From NCBI GenBank assembly GCA_021734445.1, contig JAIPIY010000002.1, positions 1 to 32,785 on the forward strand: DNA of 32,785 nt, written 5' to 3'. Of this stretch, positions 1-1,416 are shown piece after piece. Source of the stretch: Minisyncoccota bacterium (GTDB taxonomy: Bacteria > Patescibacteriota > Minisyncoccia > Phycocordibacterales > UBA1006). Numbering within the stretch: the first letter of the stretch is position 1; each line of letters begins with the position of its first letter. Under the pieces are notes generated by a model. It saw only the letters and a program-made list of their open reading frames with translations, did not search any database and was not told where the DNA came from. Position numbers and translations under genes: made by a program.

Positions 1-2
1 AA

Positions 3-254
3 ATTGACACACTTTTTACAGAACTTATCGAAGCAATTTCTGTTGCAACCTTTTTGGACAAAACAGAAAAACAACCCTGGGTTCGTCTTGCAATACGAAA
101 AAATGACACCATAAAAGTCTTTCTTATGATTCTTTGGGAAACGAAATCTCTTGATGATAAAAAATATATTGGACTTTCAGAAAAACTTGAAGAAATCGGA
201 AGAATGCTTGGCGGTTGGAATGGGCAAATTACAAAATCTTTGGAAAAGAAGTAG
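3..254 (+). CDS. avd: Avd-like DGR accessory protein, 3' part only
   Basis: The reading frame is open from the left edge to a TAG stop, so only the last 83 residues of a four-helix-bundle protein are present. The end carries LSEKLEEIGRMLGGW, the hallmark C-terminal helix of Avd-like (bAvd) proteins. These are small basic proteins that bind the reverse transcriptase and template RNA of diversity-generating retroelements; the family is usually about 110-130 residues, so the N-terminal third is probably missing. A template repeat lies 50 bases downstream and a matching variable repeat about 500 bases downstream, which supports the assignment. The gene is on the plus strand, opposite to the TR and the target gene, so it converges on them. 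The related S23/23S-intervening-sequence proteins share the fold; context makes Avd the better call. Confidence 0.85.
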   Translation: MDTLFTELIEAISVATFLDKTEKQPWVRLAIRKNDTIKVFLMILWETKSLDDKKYIGLSEKLEEIGRMLGGWNGQITKSLEKK

Positions 255-258
255 CCGT

Positions 259-291
259 AAACAAAACTCCCTCGACATATAGTCGAGAGAG
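259..291 (-). terminator. Intrinsic terminator after the DGR template repeat
   Basis: A 10-bp stem (267-276 with 282-291, one G-U pair, loop ATATA) is followed on the minus strand by TTTTGTTT (266-259). The T tract exists only in the minus direction. It would end a minus-strand RNA carrying the TR and protect it from the converging avd transcript. Confidence 0.7.
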
Positions 292-303
292 AAATGAAGA
301 GAG

Positions 304-403
304 TTTCGGACACCAGCGAACCACCAGTTGTCATTCCACCTGTTGTCATTGCGGTTAACGTTCACGTTGCGGTCGCCATTGAAACGATTGAACGTAGCGA
401 ATT
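304..403 (-). repeat. DGR template repeat (TR)
   Basis: This 100-base segment aligns without gaps to 765-864. Read on the minus strand, 20 of 28 adenines in the TR are replaced in the VR, while none of the 72 non-adenine positions differs. That is the adenine-specific signature of DGR mutagenic retrohoming. The TR reads as N-rich codons (AAC, AAT), which maximise amino-acid change when A is randomised. The minus-strand 3' part (327-307) has no adenines and is identical to the VR, as expected for the initiation-of-homing region. Confidence 0.93.
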
Positions 404-470
404 GTGCTAAGTAACGTCAGAGACACCACCCCTCGAAGTAGTATTATCTCAGGGTTGTATATAATTCGAC

Positions 471-498
471 ATCATAATGCCTTAATACTCAGCACCAA
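471..498 (-). promoter_or_regulatory. Possible promoter of the TR RNA
   Basis: On the minus strand, TTGGTG (498-493) and TATGAT (476-471) are separated by 16 bases. Transcription would start near 464 and, with the terminator at 259-291, give an RNA of about 205 nt centred on the TR. The -35 match is only partial. Confidence 0.4.
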
Positions 499-642
499 GT
501 TTCTTTATTTTTTGAAACAAACTATACATCACTCTTACTTTGACCGTGATCAAAACAATTCTCGATATATAGATGCTGGGTTCGGTCGCATGTAACCATG
601 ATCACATACAAATTTACCTAGTTCCGAGATTGATTGTAACAT

Positions 643-679
643 AAATAAGAAGAAACCCCCACGTATTGCTACGTGGGGG
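643..679 (-). terminator. Intrinsic terminator of the DGR target gene
   Basis: A perfect 10-bp stem, CCCCCACGTA (656-665) with TACGTGGGGG (670-679), has a GCAA loop in minus-strand RNA and is followed by TTTCTTCTTATTT. It lies about 80 bases past the target stop. A weaker 5-bp stem (682-695) precedes it. A DGR-type cruciform is an alternative, but those normally sit only a few bases from the VR. Confidence 0.75.
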
Positions 680-760
680 GCGAGGTTTATACCTCTCTTA
701 AAAAGCTGAAGGACAAAGGTCAAATTCCAAAATAAGGACGAAGTGACCAATATCACAGTG

Positions 761-1366
761 CTACTTGCGGACACCAGCGAACCACCAGCGGCCATTCCAC
801 CCGTGGACATAGCGGTAAACGAACACGCGGCGGCCGCCACTGAAACGACCGAACGCAGCGAAGCACCATTTACCGTTTTGATCCTTCCAATGAGTGCCGT
901 TAGGATGTTCGTCAGCAAAGGCAGGGTCGGCTTCGTTTACAGCAGCTTGGGAATACGGGTCTGCGGGTTTCAATCCACGCTTTTCATATTCTTGGTCAAG
1001 CTCTTCGTCTGTCAAAGAACTACCGACCTTGAAGAAATACACCTCAGCGGTTTCACCTTCGCCTTTTGGCATGGCGTCAACCACTTCATCGGTTACATAC
1101 AGGGTTCTACCTGTAGCCTTCAAAGCTTCCTTGCCTGAGCGTTTGCGGTTTACGGTTACTTTGCGGATTAGCATTCCGCTTACCGCCTCTACACGTTCTT
1201 TAATAACAGCCAACAGGGCTTCTCCCAGGCTATCATCACCCAAAACGGTTTGTAGGGCATCTTTCGGGAGTTCATCTTTGTGCTTCCTCATCGCAGCCGT
1301 GAATACTTCATTTACTTTACCGAATTGACCCTCGGTTGCGGGCTCAAATGTGGTCATGTCTTTCAT
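761..1366 (-). CDS. DGR target protein with C-type-lectin-like variable end
   Basis: The protein is the retroelement's diversified product. Its C-terminus has the layout of CPR DGR targets: a conserved lead-in (DPYSQAAVNEADPAFADEHP, then NGTHWKDQNGKW) followed by the VR-coded RRVFVYRYVHGW segment and the closing WWFAGVRK. This matches the C-type-lectin (formylglycine-enzyme-like) ligand-binding fold. No signal peptide or membrane helix is visible, so an intracellular role is possible. I chose the ATG at 1366 (201 residues) because other genes here start with ATG; an in-frame TTG at 1408 would give 215 residues and lies just after GAAGG. The gene is visibly more GC-rich than its neighbours, which hints at transfer. 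It has its own promoter, structured leader and terminator. The N-terminal ~110 residues are unrecognised, and the ligand cannot be told from sequence. Confidence 0.85.
   Translation of the reverse strand: MKDMTTFEPATEGQFGKVNEVFTAAMRKHKDELPKDALQTVLGDDSLGEALLAVIKERVEAVSGMLIRKVTVNRKRSGKEALKATGRTLYVTDEVVDAMPKGEGETAEVYFFKVGSSLTDEELDQEYEKRGLKPADPYSQAAVNEADPAFADEHPNGTHWKDQNGKWCFAAFGRFSGGRRVFVYRYVHGWNGRWWFAGVRK
765..864 (-). repeat. DGR variable repeat (VR)
   Basis: This is the diversified copy of the TR at 304-403, at a constant offset of 461 bases. All 20 differences fall at TR adenines (minus strand). The effect is on codons: AAC becomes CGC, TTC, TAC or CAC, AAT becomes TAT, GGT or AGT, and GAC becomes GTC or GGC. 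The VR ends immediately before the target stop codon and encodes the last ~33 residues of the target protein. The conserved WWFAGVR end is encoded by the unvaried segment. Confidence 0.93.
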
Positions 1367-1416
1367 GGCATCATTTTTTAGGTTAGACAAAACGCCATCG
1401 GACAGCAACCTTCGTG

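Follow-up and report, generated by a model that had tools for sequence, protein, structure and literature searches.

A Patescibacteria diversity-generating retroelement with a structured leader RNA and a candidate slippery repeat in avd

Bases 1-1366 of the window, as we call the whole stretch of 32,785 nucleotides analysed here from a Minisyncoccota genome, very probably form the right-hand side of a diversity-generating retroelement (DGR) of Patescibacteria (CPR) type that is cell-encoded and chromosomal. This DGR is of a kind already known, and two features, the RNA that carries its template repeat (TR) and a simple repeat at the 5' end of the accessory gene avd, set its group apart as a variant. 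We are highly confident that the DGR has a structured leader RNA. The avd repeat, as read from the sequences of relatives, makes it likely that avd is phase-variable in this DGR group.

The repeat pair, the target gene and the end of the contig

The TR (304-403, minus strand) and the variable repeat (VR; 765-864, minus strand) form a gap-free alignment with an offset of 461. On the minus strand, which is the coding strand, the TR has 28 adenines, and every one of the 20 mismatches with the VR lies at a TR adenine (10 A>G, 5 A>C and 5 A>T), with no difference at the remaining 72 positions. The restriction of 20/20 differences to adenines has a hypergeometric p of 5.8e-15, and the 100-base pair described in the earlier note proved exact on recheck. 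The VR had also been claimed as the final segment of a gene, and the minus-strand target ORF does terminate in it. In the two other DGRs of the same genome, on contigs C1 and C6, 17/17 and 20/22 of the TR/VR differences fall on TR adenines.

The target gene (761-1366, minus strand) encodes 201 aa with a C-type-lectin-like C-terminal domain, as assigned from the starts of relatives and from the fold; a TTG at 1408 is a possible start, and the ATG at 1366 is the better one, judging by relatives. A hairpin at 656-679 (minus strand) followed by TTTCTTCTT, with the T run just below base 656 (+ strand), was read from the sequence as the intrinsic terminator of the target gene. In an AlphaFold2 model (pLDDT 89.9), the target is C-type-lectin-like across residues 74-209, in agreement with the lectin-like end proposed before; nearly all rows of its structural alignment were C-type-lectin-like domains over these residues, with a middling best Z of 7.0. 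The C-type-lectin signal comes from this second-look structural aligner and the known sequence pattern, and Foldseek alone gave no match to the model below E 0.1. Neither the window target nor the genome's two other targets received a name from Pfam, PHROG or NCBIfam (the NCBIfam run excluded the full C1 target), and the window target had no match in a search of PDB sequences. The N-terminal part, which the earlier note had called unrecognised, is thus still unnamed in Pfam, PHROG and PDB sequences, but this target has company, with relatives in 17 of the 380 sampled Patescibacteria genomes. The target may have a binding role. The C1 target (L007:755-2884, minus strand, 709 aa) and the C6 target (L002:10233-10898, minus strand, 221 aa) have unrelated N-terminal parts and are without a convincing Pfam or PHROG match.

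The Avd-like protein that had been noticed next to the TR is the 3' part of avd (3-254, plus strand, 83 aa), which matches NF033474 (2.2e-7), PHROG 3206 'Avd protein of DGR' (6.1e-8) and Pfam bAvd (PF22296, 1.8e-5). Base 1 of the window is the end of its contig, C4, which breaks inside avd, and the 5' part of avd and the reverse transcriptase (RT) of this locus lie beyond the contig end; no RT was found on the window's own contig. The earlier note had let the DGR reading hang on a DGR-type RT in the genome (672 kb in 11 contigs, a bin 90% complete), and a complete RT is present on C6 and a second RT C-terminus on C1. The C6 enzyme, the single complete RT of the genome, carries the DGR-like motif GLPLGNLTSQ and is accompanied by its own Avd, TR, VR and target, forming a third, complete DGR. 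The C1 DGR likewise has its own TR, VR and target. Window bases 1-139, which belong to avd, are identical to the start of C1 before the two sequences diverge, and the far end of C1 encodes the last 78 residues of an RT; one more RT end is absent from the bin. We infer that the assembly broke off where the window DGR and the C1 DGR share a nearly identical RT-avd repeat, which would explain the loss of the window's RT and avd 5' end; the missing RT probably lies in this collapsed repeat. The simplest reading of the order would be C1 - RT - avd - window. A separate circular C1 element was considered and ruled out by the chromosomal genes on that contig (nth, rsmE, recR and rplU types, recognised by eye).

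A simple repeat at the 5' end of avd

About 60 relatives were compared, with DGR loci recovered through relatives of the target in GTDB genomes and in the 380 sampled Patescibacteria genomes. Their common layout is the target, 300-400 nt, the TR, avd on the opposite strand and then the RT, with one exception (L028) in which the target and the TR are 1577 nt apart; in the recovered loci the 5' end of the RT gene overlaps that of avd. Among the 56 relatives' avd genes that are uncut, 46 carry a simple repeat at the 5' end, which is poly-C (7-13) in 38, CA in 4, CT in 2 and GA in 2. The background for such repeats is 2.9% of 230-nt windows, and across 561 kb, 37 of the 43 distinct C/G runs of at least 8 sit at the 5' end of avd. 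Three cut avd loci, the window and C1 among them, stand outside the 56, and the window's own tract is off the contig.

Read from the upstream ATG, 14 of the repeat-bearing avd genes are in frame, 30 are out of frame and 2 have no ATG, these states being taken from MAG consensus sequences in which homopolymer length errors are possible. The fraction in frame, 14/44, equals the random one third (p = 1.0). By this measure the complete DGR on C6, with a C11 tract, is off, as is L024, the closest named relative, with a C10 tract. The RT start generally lies past the tract on the RT's own strand, therefore the frame being switched would be that of avd.

A tract at this place might instead be a mere polyproline-coding stretch or a feature of the start site, with no switch involved. 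Poly-C loci do encode PPP or PPPP, the run of G on the strand of the RT might act as its Shine-Dalgarno sequence, and Avd might begin at a GTG or TTG beyond the tract. However, some loci have CA, CT or GA repeats at the same place, and the frames of repeat-bearing genes differ from those of repeat-free avd genes, 8/8 of which are in frame (Fisher p = 4e-4; this count excludes two avd genes, one with a run of N and the other a spurious-looking ORF). In addition, the sequences upstream of the tract are alike whatever the frame (MSELN, MNKFN and MTQLN types) and similar to the way in which repeat-free genes begin. A repeat that does not switch is thus unlikely, and we prefer a phase-variable avd. 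By analogy with its relatives, the avd of the window should start with a slippery repeat, which would make hypermutation phase-variable here too.

The longest tract seen, in L132 (around 3440, avd strand), consists of 46 nt of GA repeat, again at the avd 5' end. In L106 and L087, runs of N stand at or beside the expected avd tract, as if the assembly had failed there. The window's genome also has a C9 run outside any DGR (L080:4219, contig C1 around 12219), where a further phase-variable gene is possible.

The template RNA and its distribution

In the relatives, the TR is embedded in a dedicated RNA with a structured 5' leader, a coevolving helix that closes the TR and a terminator directly after the TR. 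The corresponding elements of the window, all on the minus strand, start with a possible -10 element of the promoter of this RNA, TATGTTACAAT (633-643), proposed from the aligned position in relatives. Downstream are leader hairpin 1 (588-609), which was folded with the loop CAUG here and whose position is common to relatives, and a hairpin with a YNMG loop (CACG; 537-556). YNMG hairpins recur in relatives, with at least one in the leader of 43/46 loci (2.95 expected). The 5' strand of a helix that we call PX, AAAUAAAGA (502-510), is followed by R1 (404-500), a three-way-junction module of the leader that scores 73.4 bits (E 2e-15) with a seed to which the window's own sequence belongs. The last R1 helix stops at the start of the TR. 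Just 3' of the TR lie the 3' strand of PX, UCUUCAUUU (292-300), and the intrinsic terminator of the TR RNA (261-291; hairpin 267-291, T run 261-266), and the same hairpin and T-run scan found a terminator after the TR in 42/46 relatives.

The covariation of R1 was tested against shuffles in A1, an alignment of 17 sequences built without structure. Within the module, 92% of cells were paired compared to 70% in shuffles, double changes numbered 99 compared to 28.6, and the covariation score was 0.73 compared to 0.27. The 46 R1 matches repeat this picture, as weaker evidence since they are fitted to the model. PX joins the leader strand just before R1 to the segment just after the TR and thus pairs across the TR. 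Its two strands coevolve: over 42 loci, a leader strand pairs with its own partner at -8.7 kcal/mol and with swapped partners at -5.4 kcal/mol (permutation z -9.8). No Rfam family reached its gathering score on the DGR RNA, and the weak matches to the window are those expected by chance.

The R1 model matches 70 of the 380 Patescibacteria genomes. By a hand count from two genome lists, Avd is present in 68/70 R1-positive and 83/310 R1-negative genomes (p = 6e-30). Among the best 30 R1 loci, 26 of which are outside the seed, an RT was found within about 1.5 kb in 28/30 and Avd in 29/30. Of 12 further weaker or second matches, 10 have both RT and Avd, L122 has Avd only and L121 has neither. The L121 match (L121:4211) has an E of 7e-14, and 4.7 kb of sequence showed neither RT nor Avd. 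One high-scoring match without RT or Avd, L119, comes from a relative whose DGR has decayed: the target and the leader are retained (L119:3652-4530), the TR is cut after about 16 nt, and RT and avd are gone. The R1 covariance model thus finds Patescibacteria DGRs through their RNA, decayed ones included. It found no match in the DGR of phage BPP-1 or in six other phage DGRs.

In the window, PX has one A-C mismatch and a pairing energy of -3.0 kcal/mol. The 3' strand of PX sits in the block that is nearly identical to C1, so the mismatch probably dates from a recent conversion in which the C1 copy took the place of the RT-avd-3' flank; alternatively, function could be reduced at this locus. We also considered that the window DGR is dead or decaying and that its TR and VR record past activity after loss of RT or Avd. 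The PX mismatch and the lack of an RT on the contig are compatible with it, and L119 provides a precedent. Against it, the contig ends inside avd, within 139 bp that C1 also begins with, and C1 in turn ends in an RT C-terminus, so the apparent RT loss is most simply an assembly break; moreover, the avd fragment, the terminator and the TR are intact. We regard a dead element as improbable, and an element cut by the assembly as the better account of the window. That the leader serves the target gene as an attenuator or riboswitch, separate from the DGR template RNA, is most unlikely: it does lie directly downstream of the target, but it comes after the terminator of that gene, the helix that closes it stops at the TR start, its upstream strand pairs across the TR with the segment behind it, and Avd accompanies it in almost all leader-bearing genomes.

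Proposed mechanism and relation to known systems

These features can be combined into a scheme that borrows mutagenic retrohoming from BPP-1 (PMC12875486). A separate non-coding RNA would start around base 630 on the minus strand and comprise, within approximate boundaries, the leader hairpins, the three-way-junction module, the 100-nt TR, one strand of the long-range helix and the terminator. RT and Avd would bind this RNA and make a cDNA of the TR in which random bases stand opposite the TR adenines; this cDNA would then replace the VR in which the target gene ends, altering residues of the C-type-lectin-like domain. Slippage in the avd repeat would switch Avd, and hence hypermutation, on and off. 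In the geometry of PX, the leader strand would have its 3' side next to the TR 3' end, where a primer would sit, and we tentatively raise the possibility that cDNA synthesis is primed from the leader strand at this helix. On balance we favour a Patescibacteria-wide form of the scheme, in which a permuted template RNA (a 5' leader and a TR-closing helix with the leader strand positioned as a primer would be) is combined with slippage in the avd repeat that switches targeted hypermutation.

The window DGR resembles that of the Bordetella phage BPP-1 (mtd-avd-TR-brt) in its adenine-specific TR/VR pair, Avd, a target that ends in a C-type-lectin VR domain and, probably, an RT. In BPP-1, however, all genes are on one strand, whereas avd is on the opposite strand in the window and its relatives. 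BPP-1 has structured RNA 3' of the TR, in a spacer of about 160 nt between TR and brt (PMC12875486), and the TR lies about 140-190 nt from the annotated RT start in 5/7 phage DGRs measured. The Patescibacteria DGRs instead have structured RNA 5' of the TR, a terminator within tens of nucleotides after it and then antisense avd; a long structured spacer of the BPP-1 type was not found 3' of the TR at the window, where the terminator follows directly. The leader RNA thus suggests that cDNA priming may be arranged unlike that of BPP-1, the best-studied DGR. No simple repeat of the kind scanned for was present in the seven phage DGR loci (BPP-1 and the six others).

DGR clade 2 is confined to Patescibacteria/CPR (Roux et al. 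2021, PMC8144416), and the window resembles it by description, as cell-encoded CPR DGRs whose targets have no recognisable transmembrane or other conserved domains. A search of the text of PMC8144416 found no terms for non-coding RNA or orientation. In PMC10053308, which has terms for both DGR and phase variation, the phase variation is that of host surface molecules. The structured leader RNA and the avd repeat were found in neither Rfam nor the openly accessible literature searched.

Retrons, with their msr-msd RNA, also use a dedicated structured RNA copied by their own RT. The Patescibacteria DGRs differ from them in TR/VR mutagenic homing, in having no known msDNA and in the neighbours of the RT.

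The avd repeat resembles the poly-G/C contingency genes of Campylobacter jejuni (PMC4965091), in which a C homopolymer or a repeated dinucleotide near the start of the coding sequence sets the frame on or off. There the switched genes are surface or modification genes, whereas the gene switched here would, judging by consensus frames among relatives, encode the accessory protein of a mutator. If so, avd would act as a stochastic, heritable mutator switch, and the conserved slippery repeat would offer a direct and easily tested answer to how a DGR avoids constant mutation of its target. As a minor observation on layout, one relative (L059:557-2574) has a single TR (2476-2574) serving two tandem VR-bearing targets.
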